Below are positions 14,683-48,685 of a stretch of 48,685 nucleotides of DNA, one piece after another. The translations under genes were made by a program, and so were the position numbers. Numbering within the stretch: position 1 is the first letter of the stretch; every line of letters starts with the position of its first letter. Origin of the DNA: a virus; IMG/VR virus record IMGVR_UViG_3300000956_000106, positions 1-48,685 of that record. One strand, given 5' to 3'. A model generated the notes under the pieces. The model was not told the origin of the DNA. It did no database searches and worked only from the letters and a program-made list of their open reading frames with translations.

Positions 14683-16809
14683 GTGTCAGCAAGTCCTGAA
14701 ACTCTAGCTGCTGCGACTGCTTATGCTCGAAAGCGAGCAGCAGAGGCGGGGATTAAGCCTGTTCGTAACCCTGCCAGCCTCGAAGCTAAGGGTTGGCGGG
14801 CCTGGTATGCAACGATCTTTGGGCAAGCCTTTATTGACTCCCTGGACTCTTCTGAAACGGACGACAAGCACCATTCAGAGGCTATAGAGTGGCACTGGAA
14901 CGCTCGGCAGGCTTTGCTAAGAGGCGAGCGCCCGCCCAATGATTTTTTCGCCTACTTCCCAATTTGGTCGCGCGGGAACATGAAAACCACGGTAGCTCGC
15001 CGAATGGCTATCTGTGATGCTTGCCTTTCAACTACTGCCGGGGTCGGTGGGTACGCCTTAATCGTCGGTGGTACGCGGAAAAAGATTGCTCGCACCGCAT
15101 CCTCACTCGAGATTCTACTAACCAGTCCGGCGATCAAAGAGTACTACCCGAAATTGGCCAGGGTCAGACACACAGAGCAAGGCGCGTCGAAGGGCTGGCG
15201 AGCCGACTTTCTAAACACAGAAGCAGGGTATGTGTTTGATTTCGCAGGACTTGATCAGGGGATGGCCGGCGCCAATGAGGCCGATGTTCGCCCTTCTTTC
15301 ATCATGCCGGATGACATTGACACTCGCCATGATTCTCCAGTAGTTGCCGAGTCGAACTTCCTTACATTTACAACCGAAGTTCTTCCGATGCGTCAGGCGG
15401 ATACTTTGGTGTTCTTTGCCCAGAACCTTATCTCTCGATTCTCCGTGATGTATCGGATTCAGACCCAGCAAGTACGGGTCTTAACAAACCGTAAGCCCAC
15501 AGCGCCCGTCCCGGCAGTTAGGAATTTGGTTACAGAAACGCGAACTGTGGGCGGCATCGTGAAGGATGTTTATGTCTCAGGCAAACCAACGTGGAAGGGA
15601 TGGACGAAGCAGCGGATACAAGACGAGATTGACAGTTATGGCTTACCCGCGTTCATGCGCGAATGCCAGCACGATGTTGAGCAAAGTGACGAAGGGTTGG
15701 TTCTAAAGAACTACAACGACGCTGTTCATGTCATAAGCCGCTCAGAATTCGCGGCGGTGTACGGGACGCGGGAATTACCTCAGAAGTGGAACAAGCGAGT
15801 TTTTAACGACTGGGCAAGAACAAAAACGAAGTTCCATGCAAACGTGTTGGGGGTCTTAACGACCGCAAGCCAGAACGCTCCGCTACCTGGTTCGATGTTC
15901 TTATTTCACCCGATGAGTTTTCCGAGCGGCACGGCGGCAGAGGACGTGGCTGCGAGATTATTGACCGCAATCAGCCCCACGGTGAAAACGCCAGAAGGAA
16001 TAGAGTTCACCTGGAGACAGTTAATTACCTCAACTTTGCAAAAGGTGAATCTCGACCATTTGATTTCCGATTTCACCAAGAGAATTGAAGCAGAACGAGA
16101 AGTTCTGGCAGGCGTCATTCCGAAGTTTGTCCAGCCAATTCTCAGAGCGCAACACTTTAACGATTTCAGGGGGAGCCACGAGCAGTCAAAGACAGGCGCG
16201 TTAGCGGTCTACAAGAGAGTGTTTGGGTTGCCGTTTAAACCCGTGAATCCTGGCGGCGATGGCGGGGTGGACACGATCAACCTGATTATGCGAGTTGATT
16301 ATTCCCAGCCTCACGCCTTTCGACCGGGCGTGATGGGGCTGACGAACTTCTACGTTGTAGCGGATGACGATCGCTCAAAGTCATACAAACTCAAAGGGCA
16401 GACGGTCTATTTGCCCGCCCCTTATAACCAATCACTTACACCAGATGATTTACACGACGCGGATCTGTTCCGATACCAAGCGAGTAATTGCCGCTTCCGT
16501 GATCCAGTTTTAACCCCAGCAGGAGAGAAAGACGGTGACATTCTCAAGCTGAACGATGACTTTATAAACGGTCTGATGATGCTCTTCTACGACAGCGTAT
16601 TAGGAGCACTGCCTTTGACCTACGGGGAGCAGGTCGAGGTAGCAACTCCTGAAAAGTATCGCTATGACGCATTACTGGAAGCGTCCCCGCACAACGCAGG
16701 GTTGACGCCTGAGCAAGAACTCACATTTTTGCTGAATAAGAAATTTGCTGAACAGAAGATTACACCGCGTGTTACTCAGTTTAACGAGTACGGCGATCCG
16801 ATTGGATGA
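14683..16809 (+). CDS. terL: Terminase large subunit
   Basis: A 708-residue packaging ATPase/nuclease that drives DNA into the prohead. Residues about 90-110 hold the degenerate Walker A WSRGNMKTT, with Lys101 and Thr102 in the phosphate loop. Walker B with the catalytic acid is FIMPDDID at about 205-212. A coupling-like segment (DTLVFFAQNLISR) follows, and AFMRECQHDVEQ near 325 is typical of the ATPase domain's end. The C-terminal half (about 370-700) would contain the nuclease, but its acidic triad cannot be assigned by eye. The start is GTG, directly after the stop of the 51-residue gene. Portal and capsid genes follow downstream, as expected. Confidence 0.9.
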   Translation: MSASPETLAAATAYARKRAAEAGIKPVRNPASLEAKGWRAWYATIFGQAFIDSLDSSETDDKHHSEAIEWHWNARQALLRGERPPNDFFAYFPIWSRGNMKTTVARRMAICDACLSTTAGVGGYALIVGGTRKKIARTASSLEILLTSPAIKEYYPKLARVRHTEQGASKGWRADFLNTEAGYVFDFAGLDQGMAGANEADVRPSFIMPDDIDTRHDSPVVAESNFLTFTTEVLPMRQADTLVFFAQNLISRFSVMYRIQTQQVRVLTNRKPTAPVPAVRNLVTETRTVGGIVKDVYVSGKPTWKGWTKQRIQDEIDSYGLPAFMRECQHDVEQSDEGLVLKNYNDAVHVISRSEFAAVYGTRELPQKWNKRVFNDWARTKTKFHANVLGVLTTASQNAPLPGSMFLFHPMSFPSGTAAEDVAARLLTAISPTVKTPEGIEFTWRQLITSTLQKVNLDHLISDFTKRIEAEREVLAGVIPKFVQPILRAQHFNDFRGSHEQSKTGALAVYKRVFGLPFKPVNPGGDGGVDTINLIMRVDYSQPHAFRPGVMGLTNFYVVADDDRSKSYKLKGQTVYLPAPYNQSLTPDDLHDADLFRYQASNCRFRDPVLTPAGEKDGDILKLNDDFINGLMMLFYDSVLGALPLTYGEQVEVATPEKYRYDALLEASPHNAGLTPEQELTFLLNKKFAEQKITPRVTQFNEYGDPIG

Positions 16810-17914: not shown

Positions 17915-18304
17915 ATGTGGTTGCCGCAGGCGGCTTTAGGGCGCATTCGAGAACTCGAAGCGCAACTTAGAGACAGCGTACCGAGGGCCGTGTATGACGC
18001 GGCTCTCACGCGCATTTCTGAGCAAGAGAGGCGGATAGACTGGCAGTGCGATATGTTGTTACGTCGCGGCCAGTCTTTACCCTTGCCCCTGCCGCCCGAA
18101 GAGAAGCCGAAGCCTGAACTACAGCCGCAAGTCTCTGAGACCGACCGGGTAAAGGCTCAAGTGGTAATCGACCAAGGCAAGGCTTTGAATCTTCCCGAAA
18201 CAGATATTACCGAGGCAGTAAAGAGCCTTGGGTTAGGCTGGACTGAAGCCGACATCGCCGCTGCAATTCACGCTCCGCAATTTAGCTCGAACGGGTACGG
18301 ATGA
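17915..18304 (+). CDS. Coiled-coil protein before portal
   Basis: A 129-residue protein with a coiled coil at about residues 8-45, a Pro-rich linker (LPLPLPPEEKPKPELQP) and a C-terminal helical unit with a DITEAVKSLGLGWTEADI motif. Its ATG follows the preceding TAG without a gap, and its end overlaps the portal start by ATGA. The function is unknown; a portal-proximal head protein is the simplest reading. Confidence 0.65.
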   Translation: MWLPQAALGRIRELEAQLRDSVPRAVYDAALTRISEQERRIDWQCDMLLRRGQSLPLPLPPEEKPKPELQPQVSETDRVKAQVVIDQGKALNLPETDITEAVKSLGLGWTEADIAAAIHAPQFSSNGYG

Positions 18305-20913
18305 GCGCCACTTCCCTCTCATTACTTCCTTCACATGAAGGCGCGAATCTCGCGCCGATTAAACCCCTATTGAAACTAGGCGAAGGGGACAAGAAGCCTC
18401 AAGCCGCGCTTGATGAAGCGATCAAAGAACGATTTCAGCATTATCTAAAACAAGAACAATCAACTTGGGATGAAATGATCAAGGCGGGCGAAGAAGTCGC
18501 TCACTTCATTTCAGGGAAACAGTTTCTAATGCCGTCGCCGTACTCCACGGGGCCGCGGTGGTTGTCGTATCCCGTCGTTGGTGGCGGTACGCCTTCTGAG
18601 CGTCGAGCACTCAGTCACATGCAGTACCACACCTCGGGGAACCTTGAAAAGTGGCTGAACTCAAATCCCGATGTAAGGGTGAGGCCGGGAGTTGAGTCAG
18701 ACGATGCACACGAAGCCGCAGAAGGCGCAGGAATCGTCGTTGATCACTACGAGCCGAAGTTTTACGGGGCGAGGGTATCCATTGCTGAGTGCCTTGAGGG
18801 TTTAACTTTTGGTTCCTACGTCTGGCGTCTGAAAATTGACCCGACACTGAAATCAATCACTGCTTATCGCCAGATATTCGAGAATCGGGAAGTTAAAATC
18901 GGGCCAGGCTGGGGTAAGTGCGGAGATTGTAATTACGAAGGATCGGCCCAGGACTTTACCGAGGTTCCCGGAGAGGGTATCTACACTTGTCCGAAGTGCC
19001 ACGCAGAGGCTTTGGTTATCCCTCCCGCGTCGGATCAGATTCCAACCCTGAAAAACACTGAGCCGGTTGAGCTAGGCGATTTCAACTTGGAATTACAGTC
19101 ATTCGCTCAATGCCGATGGGATTTGAAATACCACGCCGATGAAAGCCCGTGGATGATCATTCGCAGGCGCGATTCTGAAAGCAGCCTGAAGCAGTTAATC
19201 GGCAACGTGAAAATTCCCGGCGGTGGAACAAGTGATTTAGGGTTAGACGTGGTCGATCGATTGGCTTATTCCGGCCAAGCGAGAGCCGGGAAGTCAGACG
19301 GCTCTTCCAAAAAGACCCTCTACAAAGATCCTGTCACGATTGAAGAATTCTGGATGTCACCCGCTGAGTATGGGGACATCGTTTTACGGCAGACTACTGA
19401 GACGGTTAGCGGCGAAACGATTCCTTCTAATGTTCCGTTAGGTGAGATCGCTAAAGGGCAGAACATTTGTGTTCTTGGCGTCAATGAAATGTCTGCGGTG
19501 TTAGGGATCTTCATCGAAGATCACCGTGATTACATTGTTCAGGGTAAGTGGTACTCAAAGACAGGAACAGGAGCAGGGCGGGGGCTTCAGGACTTAACTG
19601 AGGTTCAGAAGGTATTCAATTCCGATCATCAACAGACCCACACTTACCTTAGAAGCAGTTCAACCCCGGCTATGTTGGTCGCATCCGAAGTGCTGGGAGA
19701 AGAGAACAAGTCTCGGTACATCAACACTCCGGCAACCAACATTCCAGTTTCGATTGCAAACCTCGCGGAAGGTGTCAGTCTGGATCAGTTGGTGAGACCA
19801 GCGTTTCAGCCGACAGGTGTGGCGCCACAATTCTTTGAGTTCACCTATAACCGGCTGTCCGAATACGCGCAGTTTGCTTCTCATTTCATGCCTTTCACTG
19901 GAGGACTGCCGGGGGTCGATAATAAGACGGCCACAGGCGCGAATATCACTCAAGCGGCCACGAATGCTCTTTATACCCCGGTACTGTCGGTGAAGGGCGA
20001 GGTTCGCCGTCTCGTGGCCGAGAAATTAGTTAAACTTTATCCAAAGCACTTTCCTGTTGATCGGTATTTCCCTTTAGGTGGAAAGCATCAGAAGCATTCG
20101 GGTAAGTGGCTCAAGGGCGCAACGCTCGATACTGATCTTCTATTTGAGGTGGTTGCTGATTCATGGAATCCCCGAAACTCGTACATCAAACGGCAGGACT
20201 ATGCGGGATTTGTTCAGTTGTTTGGCGGTGTTGCGGGTTGGATGCAGGCGCGACAACTCGATCCTGAGCGCGTTGGTGACATGGAGCGCACATTTGACCT
20301 TGAACTTGATTCAGAGACGCGAAACGTAGCACAGAGTTTGTGCTTTCGCAGAGTCAGACAAATTCAGCAGGCCGCTTCGATTGTTCAAGACCCAATGCAG
20401 TTAGTAGGAGTTCAGCCCGCTATCGATCCACAGCAGCCAACAGGTTTGACTATCACCGGGCAAGGGGCAATTCAGCCGCCTGTATCTCAAGCAGAACCGG
20501 GCCATGCAATTAAACGCCAATGGCTAATGGAGTGGCTTGATTCGGATGATGGCCTGGAGGCCCCAATGCCGGTAAGAGGTGCCGTAGAGGTACTGATCCA
20601 GCTTCACACCCAACTCGACGGGCAGCACGGAGCGATTCTCGCTAAACAGCAGGGAGAGGTTCAGGTTGCGCAAGCCCAGCCTGGAATGGAAGCGCAACAA
20701 CAGGCTATGCAAGCTGAAGGTCAACAACAGATTGCACAGCAAGAAGCCCAGTTGGAGCTAGGGGCGAAAGAGGCAATGGGTCAGCAGTTAGTCAACCAAG
20801 CAGACATCGAAACCGAAGCCGAAAAGCAGGAATTGGAAGAGTCCCATTTGGCCGCAATGAACCAGCTGAAGGCACAAGATCGGGAGCATCGGATGGTGAC
20901 AAGCAATGCCTGA
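18301..20913 (+). CDS. Portal protein with zinc-ribbon insertion
   Basis: An 870-residue portal, the dodecameric ring at the head vertex through which DNA passes. The N-terminal half has the helical wing region (residues about 40-190). Residues 207-233 contain two Cys-x-x-Cys pairs (C207, C210, C230, C233), a rubredoxin-like zinc ribbon inserted in the fold. A central stem/crown region follows, with MPFTGGLPGVDNKTATGANI near 530-550. The C-terminal 130 residues are a Gln/Glu/Ala-rich coiled coil, likely the barrel. It is large for a portal (P22 about 725), consistent with a podovirus-type long barrel. It lies between terminase and scaffold in the canonical order. Confidence 0.88.
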   Translation: MSATSLSLLPSHEGANLAPIKPLLKLGEGDKKPQAALDEAIKERFQHYLKQEQSTWDEMIKAGEEVAHFISGKQFLMPSPYSTGPRWLSYPVVGGGTPSERRALSHMQYHTSGNLEKWLNSNPDVRVRPGVESDDAHEAAEGAGIVVDHYEPKFYGARVSIAECLEGLTFGSYVWRLKIDPTLKSITAYRQIFENREVKIGPGWGKCGDCNYEGSAQDFTEVPGEGIYTCPKCHAEALVIPPASDQIPTLKNTEPVELGDFNLELQSFAQCRWDLKYHADESPWMIIRRRDSESSLKQLIGNVKIPGGGTSDLGLDVVDRLAYSGQARAGKSDGSSKKTLYKDPVTIEEFWMSPAEYGDIVLRQTTETVSGETIPSNVPLGEIAKGQNICVLGVNEMSAVLGIFIEDHRDYIVQGKWYSKTGTGAGRGLQDLTEVQKVFNSDHQQTHTYLRSSSTPAMLVASEVLGEENKSRYINTPATNIPVSIANLAEGVSLDQLVRPAFQPTGVAPQFFEFTYNRLSEYAQFASHFMPFTGGLPGVDNKTATGANITQAATNALYTPVLSVKGEVRRLVAEKLVKLYPKHFPVDRYFPLGGKHQKHSGKWLKGATLDTDLLFEVVADSWNPRNSYIKRQDYAGFVQLFGGVAGWMQARQLDPERVGDMERTFDLELDSETRNVAQSLCFRRVRQIQQAASIVQDPMQLVGVQPAIDPQQPTGLTITGQGAIQPPVSQAEPGHAIKRQWLMEWLDSDDGLEAPMPVRGAVEVLIQLHTQLDGQHGAILAKQQGEVQVAQAQPGMEAQQQAMQAEGQQQIAQQEAQLELGAKEAMGQQLVNQADIETEAEKQELEESHLAAMNQLKAQDREHRMVTSNA

Positions 20914-32336: not shown

Positions 32337-33068
32337 ATGGAAACCGCAAGAACAAAGATTCGAGAAGCGTTATGCAAAGCAGAGTTTCCCGCTGTTCTCT
32401 GGTCGGGCGGTAAGGATAGTCAGCTTCTTTTGACTTTGGCGCGCGAGATAAACCCGGCGATTCCTGTGATTTGGTTTCGCTCAAGCGGAAGAGAAACTTT
32501 CGCCCGACGGATGATCATGGAATTGCATTTAGACGTGTGGAACTGGGAACCTTCGGATGTGTATGTCCTGCCAAATGATAGTGGTCTGAGTCTTGTTCGC
32601 GAGCAGTCTTTTGGGAATCAACGGTTTCCTGTCGTCTTGGATGTAGAGCAAGGCGAGCGTTGCATCGGAGACGTTTTACCTAGCAGGACACTTCAACTCT
32701 TTCCGCACTTCGACACACTGTTACTTGGCTATAAAGATTCTGATTATCACTGGACGCTCGGAGGGTCAGGATTTTGCCCTGCTGATGGATGGCAACTCGG
32801 CAAGGCAAAAGTCTTTGCTCCATTAAGGCACCTTTCGGACGAAGAAGTTTGGAGCGCGATCAAGACAATGGGAGTGCCCTATGACATTGAGCGATATGAA
32901 GGCGGTGGAAGCGATCCCGATTGCATGAGCGCGTGTACTCAATGTCTTCAGCCGGGAATCGGGAAAGTTTTTTGTCCTAAACAGCAAGCAGAAATAGATC
33001 GGGTGGCATGGAGTCCTCGCGACAGCTTACAGGCATTTAGAATTAGATTTGGATTTAGGGAGAACTGA
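32337..33068 (+). CDS. PP-loop PAPS reductase-like protein
   Basis: A 243-residue member of the PP-loop ATP pyrophosphatase/PAPS-reductase group. SGGKDS is at residues 23-28 in WSGGKDSQLLLTLAREI. The downstream part has an RSSGRETF segment and FAPLRHLSDEEVWSAI near 160. A cysteine cluster follows, C196, C200 and C203 with a fourth Cys near 213 (VFCPKQ), which could bind an iron-sulfur or zinc site. Known relatives transfer sulfur or reduce activated sulfate. The substrate is unknown here; DNA or tRNA modification and sulfur metabolism are both possible. Its place between virion genes is unusual. Confidence 0.8.
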   Translation: METARTKIREALCKAEFPAVLWSGGKDSQLLLTLAREINPAIPVIWFRSSGRETFARRMIMELHLDVWNWEPSDVYVLPNDSGLSLVREQSFGNQRFPVVLDVEQGERCIGDVLPSRTLQLFPHFDTLLLGYKDSDYHWTLGGSGFCPADGWQLGKAKVFAPLRHLSDEEVWSAIKTMGVPYDIERYEGGGSDPDCMSACTQCLQPGIGKVFCPKQQAEIDRVAWSPRDSLQAFRIRFGFREN

Positions 33069-47115: not shown

Positions 47116-47145
47116 TTTGTACCGCGAAAGGTACGCCGGTGTCAA
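47116..47145 (-). promoter_or_regulatory. Early leftward promoter PL-like
   Basis: Reading leftward: TTGACA (47145-47140, perfect) with an 18-bp spacer, then TACAAA (47121-47116, 4 of 6; TACAAAT continues). The spacer and part of the -10 contain the 16-bp operator at 47119-47134, so a bound repressor would block polymerase. It would drive the reverse-strand cluster beginning at 47082. Confidence 0.75.
47119..47134. promoter_or_regulatory. Operator 1 (palindromic)
   Basis: GTACCGCGAAAGGTAC: the half-sites GTACC and GGTAC are perfect inverted repeats separated by GCGAAA. It is located between the -35 and -10 elements of the early leftward promoter. It matches operator 2 at 14 of 16 positions. 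It is the presumed binding site of the XRE-type protein encoded at 47258. Confidence 0.75.
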
Positions 47146-47196
47146 GATAAATCCGCTGGGTTGCATGATTTTTCTGTTACTGTTGATTCTAAAGGC

Positions 47197-47212
47197 GTTC
47201 CGCGAACGGTAC
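47197..47212. promoter_or_regulatory. Operator 2 (near-palindromic)
   Basis: GTTCCGCGAACGGTAC is identical to operator 1 at 14 of 16 bases, 78 bp away. It is followed by AAAT in the forward direction, so TACAAAT (47210-47216) could be a -10 for rightward transcription of the repressor gene, mirroring operator 1 on the other strand. A matching -35 is poor. TTGATT at 47183-47188 is 21 bp away. Confidence 0.7.
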
Positions 47213-47221
47213 AAATAGTTA

Positions 47222-47257: not shown

Positions 47258-47506
47258 ATGACGAAGGACATTCGACTGACTATTAAGCAGGCTGCGCGGA
47301 GCCGAGAGATTGAAAACCCAAGCCAACTTGCGACAGAGGCGAAGATAAGCCGCTCAATGGCGACAGCGGCATGGAATGAGACACGCGATCCCGACCTGCG
47401 CACTCTCTGGAAGATCGCGAAGGCGTTGAACTGTGATTTAAGCGATCTCGTCCGCTTTGTCGGAACGAAAAACGGGACTAAGGCTTCGCGGTCAAGCCAG
47501 TCGTAA
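47258..47506 (+). CDS. XRE-type repressor
   Basis: An 82-residue DNA-binding protein. A helix-turn-helix of the Xre/Cro class covers about residues 6-70: IKQAARSREIENPSQLATEA, then ISRSMATAAWNETRDPDLRT, then LWKIAKALNCDLSDLVRFVG. The second stretch is the likely recognition helix. There is no dimerisation/protease domain, so it is Cro-sized. It stands divergent to the early operon with two operators between, so it is probably the switch repressor. The ATG at 47258 is preferred over the upstream in-frame codon at 47222. Its end overlaps the reverse-strand peptide gene by 29 bp. Confidence 0.85.
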   Translation: MTKDIRLTIKQAARSREIENPSQLATEAKISRSMATAAWNETRDPDLRTLWKIAKALNCDLSDLVRFVGTKNGTKASRSSQS

Positions 47507-47654
47507 TCACGCTAATCAGCAATGGCGCTGAAGATGATTGTGACGAGCAGGGCGGGCTAAGAGTATCGCCACAGGGCGGGCTTAATGTATCGCCAGCGAG
47601 TGATGGGGTTGAAAGGGCAAATAAAAGCAGTAGAGAGAAGAAATAGCGTTTCAT
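47478..47654 (-). CDS. Secreted peptide precursor with GDTLSPPC repeats
   Basis: A 58-residue protein. The first 20 residues (MKRYFFSLLLLFALSTPSLA) are an ideal Sec signal peptide with SLA cleavage. The mature part starts with two tandem copies of GDTLSPPC (residues 21-28 and 29-36), then a Ser-rich linker and a hydrophobic end. The ribosome site GGAGGT lies seven bases before the ATG, which is the best in the region. The two repeats differ at four bases, all synonymous, so the peptide sequence is under selection. It runs antisense to the repressor's end, and its start overlaps that of the TPR gene. A secreted signal peptide is plausible; an envelope-stress or toxic peptide is an alternative. 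Confidence 0.75.
   Translation of the reverse strand: MKRYFFSLLLLFALSTPSLAGDTLSPPCGDTLSPPCSSQSSSAPLLISVITTGLTAKP
47548..47595. repeat. Tandem 24-bp repeat with only synonymous changes
   Basis: Two adjacent 24-bp units inside the peptide gene encode the same octapeptide GDTLSPPC. On the coding strand the codons differ at Thr (ACA/ACT), Leu (TTA/CTT) and Cys (TGT/TGC), four base changes in total, with no amino acid change. The divergence shows the duplication is not very recent. Confidence 0.85.
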
Positions 47655-48685
47655 GGTAGAGACCTCCACCGCTGAATTTACCGACTCTCTGGCCTTTACG
47701 ATTTGCAGAGCTTTCGAGCTGTGCGAGATTGCCGAATACGATCAAGCCGGGGAGTCTCTTCCCTTTCCCGATCAAGAATCCTCTGACGGTGAATTGTTAT
47801 TCGTTTGGGGCGTGATCGCGTCAGGCCAGGGACGGCAAGAACAGGCAAAGGATCTGCTTAGTAAGGCAGCTCGTATTCTGAAACCCGCTCTCGCTGAGCT
47901 GGCGAGGGTTTATCTATCGGTTTGCTATTGGCGATTAGGTGAGGACTCTTCGGCATCAATTCTGCTCGACATTGAACCTTCAGATTTACAAGCCAAATTC
48001 TGCTGGCTGATGGTCCGAATGATGATCGAAGCAGAACAACGGAACTGGAACGAAGCCTTGGCGTTATTAGAAAAAGCAGAACCATTCGTCGAGCGCGTTT
48101 CAATTCCGAACCAGGGGAAATTCTTTAATCATCGGGGATTGGCATTTCGCAATCTCGGGGAATACGACCGTGCGCTTATTGACTTTGAATCCGCGTGTAG
48201 TCACTGGCAAGACGCTCCTAAACTTCGAGCACTTGCTTTGAACAACACGGGGCGTTTGTACTCGCTTACGGGAGAATTGGATAAGGCTTTAGCGTGTGTT
48301 GATGAGGCAATTTCACTGGTAGATAGCAGACAGCTATTAGGACAATTTTATGATCAACGATCGATTATCCTGCTTGAACATGGGCTTACCGAGCAAGCCG
48401 AAATAGAGTCTAGAAAAGCGATATCATACTTAGCTAAAAGTGAGCGAGTTGATTACCTGAATGAGGCACTAGAAACTTGTAATCGCGCCGCAAAACAAAC
48501 CCATTGTCAGATGTCAGAATCCGTGCTATCTAGTTCATCCCCTGAGCAATTTCGATCCCAAAGAGGAGGTTGTGAACCTCTGACCCTCGAACGGGCCACA
48601 CAACTGATCGATGCCATTACGACAGAAAACGACGGAGAGCACGCTTGGGAAATTATTGAGCTATTAGCCAAGACCGCTGACCCGA
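47653..48685 (+). CDS. TPR repeat protein, partial at right edge
   Basis: At least 344 residues, open to the window end. The sequence is a chain of tetratricopeptide repeats: GVIASGQGRQEQAKDLLSKA (about 58), RVYLSVCYWRLGEDSSASIL (about 86), NRGLAFRNLGEYDRALIDFE-type (about 160), NNTGRLYSLTGELDKALACV (about 200) and QRSIILLEHGLTEQAEIESR (about 240). TPR domains bind peptides or proteins, and peptide receptors such as Rap and AimR are TPR proteins. The N-terminus shows no helix-turn-helix. The ATG overlaps the peptide gene's start on the other strand; GAGAGAAG, 12-14 bases upstream, is a modest ribosome site. If the molecule is circular, it would end at position 44 (358 residues). Confidence 0.8.
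   Translation, partial: MVETSTAEFTDSLAFTICRAFELCEIAEYDQAGESLPFPDQESSDGELLFVWGVIASGQGRQEQAKDLLSKAARILKPALAELARVYLSVCYWRLGEDSSASILLDIEPSDLQAKFCWLMVRMMIEAEQRNWNEALALLEKAEPFVERVSIPNQGKFFNHRGLAFRNLGEYDRALIDFESACSHWQDAPKLRALALNNTGRLYSLTGELDKALACVDEAISLVDSRQLLGQFYDQRSIILLEHGLTEQAEIESRKAISYLAKSERVDYLNEALETCNRAAKQTHCQMSESVLSSSSPEQFRSQRGGCEPLTLERATQLIDAITTENDGEHAWEIIELLAKTADP

Follow-up and report, generated by a model that had tools for sequence, protein, structure and literature searches.

Gene organization at the right end of the window

The window, by which we mean the whole stretch of DNA that was analysed (48,685 nt), is an incomplete linear virus record, IMGVR_UViG_3300000956_000106. In its gene map, the late genes run rightward, the early genes run leftward from 46.9 kb, and an XRE gene and a TPR gene run rightward. 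The XRE gene (47258..47506, plus strand, ATG start) encodes a small repressor of 82 aa that matches Pfam HTH_26 (E=4e-9) and consists of a single HTH domain without a C-terminal cleavage domain; PADLOC returned generic HTH matches only for this protein. Two candidate XRE operators were found on the plus strand, operator 1 at 47116..47137 with the core GTACCGCGAAAGGTAC (47119-47134) and operator 2 at 47194..47216 with the core GTTCCGCGAACGGTAC (47197-47212), which places them 78 bp apart. The initial annotation had described a repressor and its operators in front of the peptide gene. The repressor is indeed there, but the operators are located upstream of the XRE gene and not between the XRE and peptide genes.

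The gap between the XRE and TPR genes is filled by an antisense gene for a predicted exported peptide precursor (47478..47654, minus strand, 58 aa), in which the signal peptide MKRYFFSLLLLFALSTPSLA is followed by the mature part GDTLSPPCGDTLSPPCSSQSSSAPLLISVITTGLTAKP. We confirmed the Sec-type precursor with tandem GDTLSPPC units that had been noticed earlier, on the minus strand with its stop at 47478. The two GDTLSPPC codon octets (47547..47594, minus strand) form a tandem repeat of 24 bp x 2 with a score of 75 that is unique in the window, and shuffled versions of the window predict 0 occurrences of the pattern. The repeats begin exactly at the predicted signal peptidase I site (S-L-A), and the candidate forms of the peptide are GDTLSPPC, GDTLSPPCGDTLSPPC, and the 38-mer. 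The GTG at 47669, previously suggested as the start codon, is less likely than the ATG at 47654 because the GTG sits within the strong Shine-Dalgarno sequence of that ATG (GGTGGAGGTCTCTACC-ATG). No consensus promoter for the peptide gene was seen in the window. The peptide and TPR genes stand head to head with overlapping starts, as initially described, their start codons sharing the CATG at 47652-47655. On the other side, the peptide and XRE genes share 29 bases at their 3' ends, so that the peptide gene spans the entire XRE-TPR gap on the opposite strand.

The repeat is under constraint at the amino-acid level: 4 base differences, some of them in a TTA/CTT pair, distinguish its two copies without changing any amino acid, while 4 random differences were all silent in ~0.3% of trials (chance ~0.003). 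A tblastn search with the window peptide found no relative in phages and plasmids (IMG/VR, INPHARED, and PLSDB). The repeat had no match in viruses as a strict DNA pattern and 4 unrelated matches as a loose pattern, and its 15 matches in bacterial genomes were all unrelated on reading. Separately, we observed that DNA repeats of 20-30 bp in unrelated bacterial loci (L010, L011, L012, L016, and L019) spell GDTxSP-like words in one frame; a repeat of this kind should therefore be tested at its silent sites before it is read as a peptide.

The phage itself appears, from its sequence, to belong to a very divergent tailed phage lineage. Its capsid, portal, and terminase-region proteins (for example those at 14683-16809 and 18301-20913) had no INPHARED match and no Pfam family, and a phosphoadenosine-phosphosulfate-reductase-like protein (32337-33068; PAPS_reduct, E=3e-6) is encoded amid the tail genes. 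A holin-like gene and a lipoprotein-like ORF are found in the lysis region, and our impression is that the signal peptides resemble those of diderm bacteria. When the XRE profile was searched in 966 genomes from four sampled phyla, we found no close relative and two weak matches of ~31 bits, both in the phylum of a cyanobacterial MAG.

A second phage with the same gene layout

The only match derived from the XRE protein was IMGVR_UViG_3300035112_000009 (63,048 bases), in which the locus is referred to as L023 and the whole record as G001; a profile search and a motif search returned this same single contig. It contains an XRE gene, an antisense gene for a signal-peptide precursor in the gap, and a TPR gene in the same layout, so that the check for conservation of the trio called for in the initial annotation comes out positive, with two examples (n=2, the window and this relative). 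The TPR gene is the phage's own rather than part of a host locus, which had been a concern. In the relative, the XRE gene (L023 6001-6276) lies upstream of the TPR gene (L023 6455-7411), and its product is 67% identical to that of the window. The two 16-bp operator cores are upstream of the XRE gene in both phages. The first, GTACCGCGAAAGGTAC, is identical and at the same place, and the second, GTTCCGC(G/A)AACGGTAC, has one mismatch; the spacing in the relative is 79 bp, and the operator pair was found nowhere else in either genome.

The peptide precursor of the relative (L023 6440-6273, minus strand, 55 aa) consists of MKKLLFALTIVCVIALSVIA and then QEPPVCIPGSIPTPPGCAEPSSFMDDVLCAVGFCF, with QEPPVCIPGSIPTPPGC as a candidate mature form, and its stop codon overlaps that of the XRE gene. 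It has no clear Shine-Dalgarno sequence, and the gap contains no 24-bp DNA repeat. The relative lacks GDTLSPPC and encodes another mature peptide; therefore, the claim for this specific octapeptide applies to the window only. The two mature peptides aligned no better than shuffles (p ~0.18). Two PP(x)C motifs are present near the start of each mature peptide, an arrangement seen in 1.2% of L023 shuffles and 0.08% of window shuffles in a post hoc comparison. The difference between the mature peptides fits rapidly diverging pheromones.

We also estimated how often such a precursor gene would arise by chance. In dinucleotide shuffles, we asked how often the minus strand would carry an ATG ORF of 50 aa or more that spans the XRE-TPR gap and satisfies a signal-peptide filter. 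This was so in 0.045% of shuffles for the window, a post hoc figure, and in 0.04% for the L023 gap, which is an independent figure because this locus was found via its repressor and not via its peptide. The filter is a crude rule of our own and not SignalP; it asks for a basic N-terminus, a hydrophobic core, and small residues at -3/-1, and is passed by ~1.6-1.8% of all small ORFs in the genomes of the two phages. At 58 and 55 aa and beside TPR genes, both precursors also fall within the rule of RRNPP_detector for an adjacent Sec propeptide of 10-100 aa (PMC10075063), with export called by our crude rule. Judged from sequence, the peptide is very probably a real gene product of the exported type.

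G001 is collinear with the window, and the shared proteins are 21-68% identical. Beyond its TPR gene, it carries a CI-like gene (L023 7413-7874, minus strand), which is tail to tail with the TPR gene, and a Cro-like gene (L023 7914-8183, plus strand), with 39 bases between the starts of the two; the HTH assignments of both are weak. The relative may thus have two linked switches. A TnpB-like ORF with a zinc-finger C-terminus (recognized by eye) lies at L023 8262-9332, between the Cro-like gene and the replication genes. Further on are an ERF recombinase, a YqaJ exonuclease, a DnaB helicase, and a tyrosine integrase. The tyrosine integrase gene (L025 5777-7098) is beside an apparent tRNA-Lys 3' end, TGAGCCGAGCAGGACTCGAACCTGCGACCCACTGGTTAAAAG, which was read by eye, and ARAGORN found no whole tRNA at this stretch, which is probably the attP site. 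Because the integrase adjoins the tRNA-Lys fragment, a temperate lifestyle is very probable for the relative, whose probable lysogeny switch is adjacent to the trio. Another related contig, L021, which we reached via a 433-aa protein, was set aside as a fragment without the switch region.

We also considered reading the window as a complete circle, in which the TPR frame would continue across both ends. This reading was rejected because the window has no end repeat and because the collinear relative carries CI/Cro, replication, and integrase genes that are absent from the window; the continuing frame is a coincidental join.

Structure models of the TPR protein

The TPR gene of the window (47653..48685, plus strand, ATG start) is cut by the contig end and encodes 343+ aa (Pfam TPR_2, E=4e-13); by comparison with the 318-aa protein of the relative, ~45 aa are missing from the C-terminus. 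The two proteins are 33% identical over residues 111-339. Residues 1-110 of the window protein are without a counterpart in L023, and an open frame of that length is expected by chance at ~0.5%. Both proteins have Pfam TPR matches, and their lengths fit the size of the superhelix receptors of RRNPPA (~250-500 aa). Neither protein contains an HTH, which is encoded by a separate gene. With the RNPP_C profile, the window protein scored 13.9 bits (E=0.038), below the cut-off of 26.5, and the L023 protein gave no match at E<=0.01. As a sequence query, the TPR protein found no relatives in IMG/VR or INPHARED and generic TPR matches only in the PLSDB plasmids.

The structure models, which were built from two-sequence alignments, are superhelices with a mean pLDDT of 72-73 (72 for the window protein), and their central TPR helices score well over 80. 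They align at Z 18-21 with Rap proteins, among them RappLS20 and, with pheromone, the phage Rap of Phi105 and of phi3T. The eukaryotic LGN aligns at Z 20-23, LGN and the other TPR proteins together span Z 18-23, and designed TPRs score as high as Rap or higher. The modeled fold is thus compatible with a peptide receptor and is a nonspecific match. A search of a viral structure library with the TPR model was uninformative, its top matches being mostly giant-virus TPR proteins.

Comparison with known systems

By its components, the trio corresponds to the Rap-Phr-Rco conjugation switch of the Bacillus plasmid pLS20. In that switch, Rco is a repressor with two nearby sites, the TPR protein Rap acts as its antirepressor by direct binding, and Rco is set free again by the Phr peptide (PMC7430634). 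From reading of the genes, its three traits are all present here, namely a separate HTH-free TPR protein, a separate repressor with two nearby sites, and a peptide of the exported type. RappLS20 matches the TPR models with a Foldseek E of ~5e-5, and the Z score (VIA) is ~18 for the L023 model. In contrast to pLS20, the peptide gene here is antisense between the repressor and TPR genes, there is no sequence similarity, and the XRE protein is a single 82-aa HTH domain.

The Rap-Phr systems of phi3T and Phi105 (PMC11343458, PMC8027211) are likewise encoded by temperate phages, and their receptors align with our models at Z 19-20. They also have repeated-pheromone precursors, repeats of the pheromone within one precursor being known from Phr105 and Phr3T (PMC11343458). 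Unlike the peptides described here, the Phr pheromones are of the Gram-positive hexapeptide type, and no small XRE gene with an antisense peptide gene is adjacent. In phi3T and Phi105, the peptide gene follows rap in the same direction.

A phage TPR receptor and a secreted peptide beside the lysogeny switch are also features of the arbitrium system AimR-AimP-AimX of the SPbeta-group phages (PMC6458997). In both phages described here, however, the TPR protein has no fused HTH, and the peptide gene lies on the opposite strand, upstream of the TPR gene. AimR itself binds DNA as an HTH-TPR protein, and AimP and AimX are encoded downstream of it, with aimP directly behind aimR on the same strand. 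The trio is not an arbitrium system.

Another likeness is found in the XRE/TF-smORF prophage induction modules, in which an XRE-type factor and a counter-oriented, previously unannotated small ORF control the lysis switch (PMC10432266). The small proteins of these modules act inside the cell on CI, and neither a TPR partner nor a signal peptide is mentioned for them, whereas both small proteins here carry signal-peptide features, which speaks against cytoplasmic action to the extent that export is predicted. In summary, membership in RRNPPA is not assignable by sequence, and the trio would at most work like Rap-Phr. In a limited search of open-access papers, we found no description of a trio of this kind.

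Alternative explanations

The peptide ORF could be open by chance, with the 24-bp repeat acting as a DNA element such as binding sites or a decayed transposon end, and GDTxSP-like repeats of 20-30 bp elsewhere can be non-coding, as judged by eye for those upstream of an IstA-like ORF in L010. Here, however, the copies differ silently only, an independent signal-peptide ORF is present at the same place in the repeat-free L023, and the window gene has a strong Shine-Dalgarno sequence, which leaves this explanation with a very small chance of being correct. Transposon-end or iteron DNA was rejected on account of the silent-only differences together with the repeat-free L023 counterpart. A real gene product could still act within the producing cell or its membrane as an antirepressor, a toxin, or a factor for lysis timing, similarly to the TF-smORF modules or to type I toxin-antitoxin systems, with the XRE-TPR mRNA as the antisense RNA and the signal peptide as a membrane anchor. 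In both phages, the gene runs antisense to the XRE-TPR transcript over its full length, and in prophages of Gram-negative bacteria CI is controlled by counter-oriented small ORFs next to factors of the XRE type (PMC10432266), both of which would suit such a role. On the other hand, both N-termini have small residues at -3/-1, the repeats start right after the predicted cut, and a GDTLSPPC repeat is unexpected for a pore or membrane toxin, so that an intracellular function seems improbable to us.

If the peptide is exported, it might act on the envelope instead of on a receptor. We envisage a prophage factor for superinfection exclusion or a small periplasmic or secreted effector that is under XRE-TPR control, with the TPR protein regulating the repressor without a peptide ligand. 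Such a factor would suit the signal peptide and the Cys-rich mature parts with possible disulphides, as well as the position of the gene in the immunity region, and the mature peptides are wholly different between the phages, as superinfection-exclusion factors can be. It would, however, need neither the tandem short repeat nor the conserved position beside a TPR protein of the peptide-receptor type, and we regard an envelope factor as rather unlikely.

A proposed peptide-sensing switch

We propose, with a nearly even chance of being right, that the three phage genes form a regulatory switch which senses a peptide and works like the Rap-Phr-Rco system of pLS20. Peptide communication had been suggested in the initial annotation; the trio, the presence of a peptide, and the layout are conserved as that idea would have it, but the sequence of the octapeptide is not kept in the relative. 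Communication is the most economical reading of the genes at these two loci, and we put its chances at about even. It starts from the genes and their layout, the operators kept in both phages, the same layout in a relative that is very probably temperate, and the amino-acid constraint on the repeat.

In the proposed switch, the XRE protein would bind the two operators ~78 bp apart and would repress its own operon, the early genes that run leftward, or both. The TPR protein, presumably co-transcribed with XRE, would serve as a soluble receptor and modulate repressor activity, most likely as an antirepressor. The antisense gene would yield a Sec-exported, Cys/Pro-rich precursor, which would be trimmed outside the cytoplasm, re-enter cells, bind to the TPR superhelix, and reset the repressor. 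We infer secretion, processing, re-uptake, the binding of the TPR protein to the peptide and to XRE, and the effect on lysogeny. With the whole peptide gene lying opposite the XRE-TPR transcript, expression of the peptide and of the receptor would probably be mutually exclusive. In a host with an outer membrane, re-uptake of the peptide would be one more presumed step.

RRNPP-type peptide communication has been described in Firmicutes and in their phages and plasmids (PMC10075063, PMC12700828). The broader picture, which we offer tentatively and think somewhat short of an even chance, is a communication switch of temperate phages that has no detectable sequence relation to RRNPPA, carries an antisense pheromone gene within the repressor-receptor operon, possibly operates in non-Firmicute (outer-membrane) soil bacteria, and has pheromones that diverge completely under a constant repressor and constant operators. 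Further cases could be searched for with the rule of a small XRE gene, an antisense Sec peptide that fills the gap, and a TPR gene. Judged from its genes, the three-gene unit shared by these two distantly related phages could be a new phage signalling switch. If this is true, the unrelated receptor, the antisense layout, and the fast-changing peptides would mean that switches of this type either have more than one origin or have spread far more widely.
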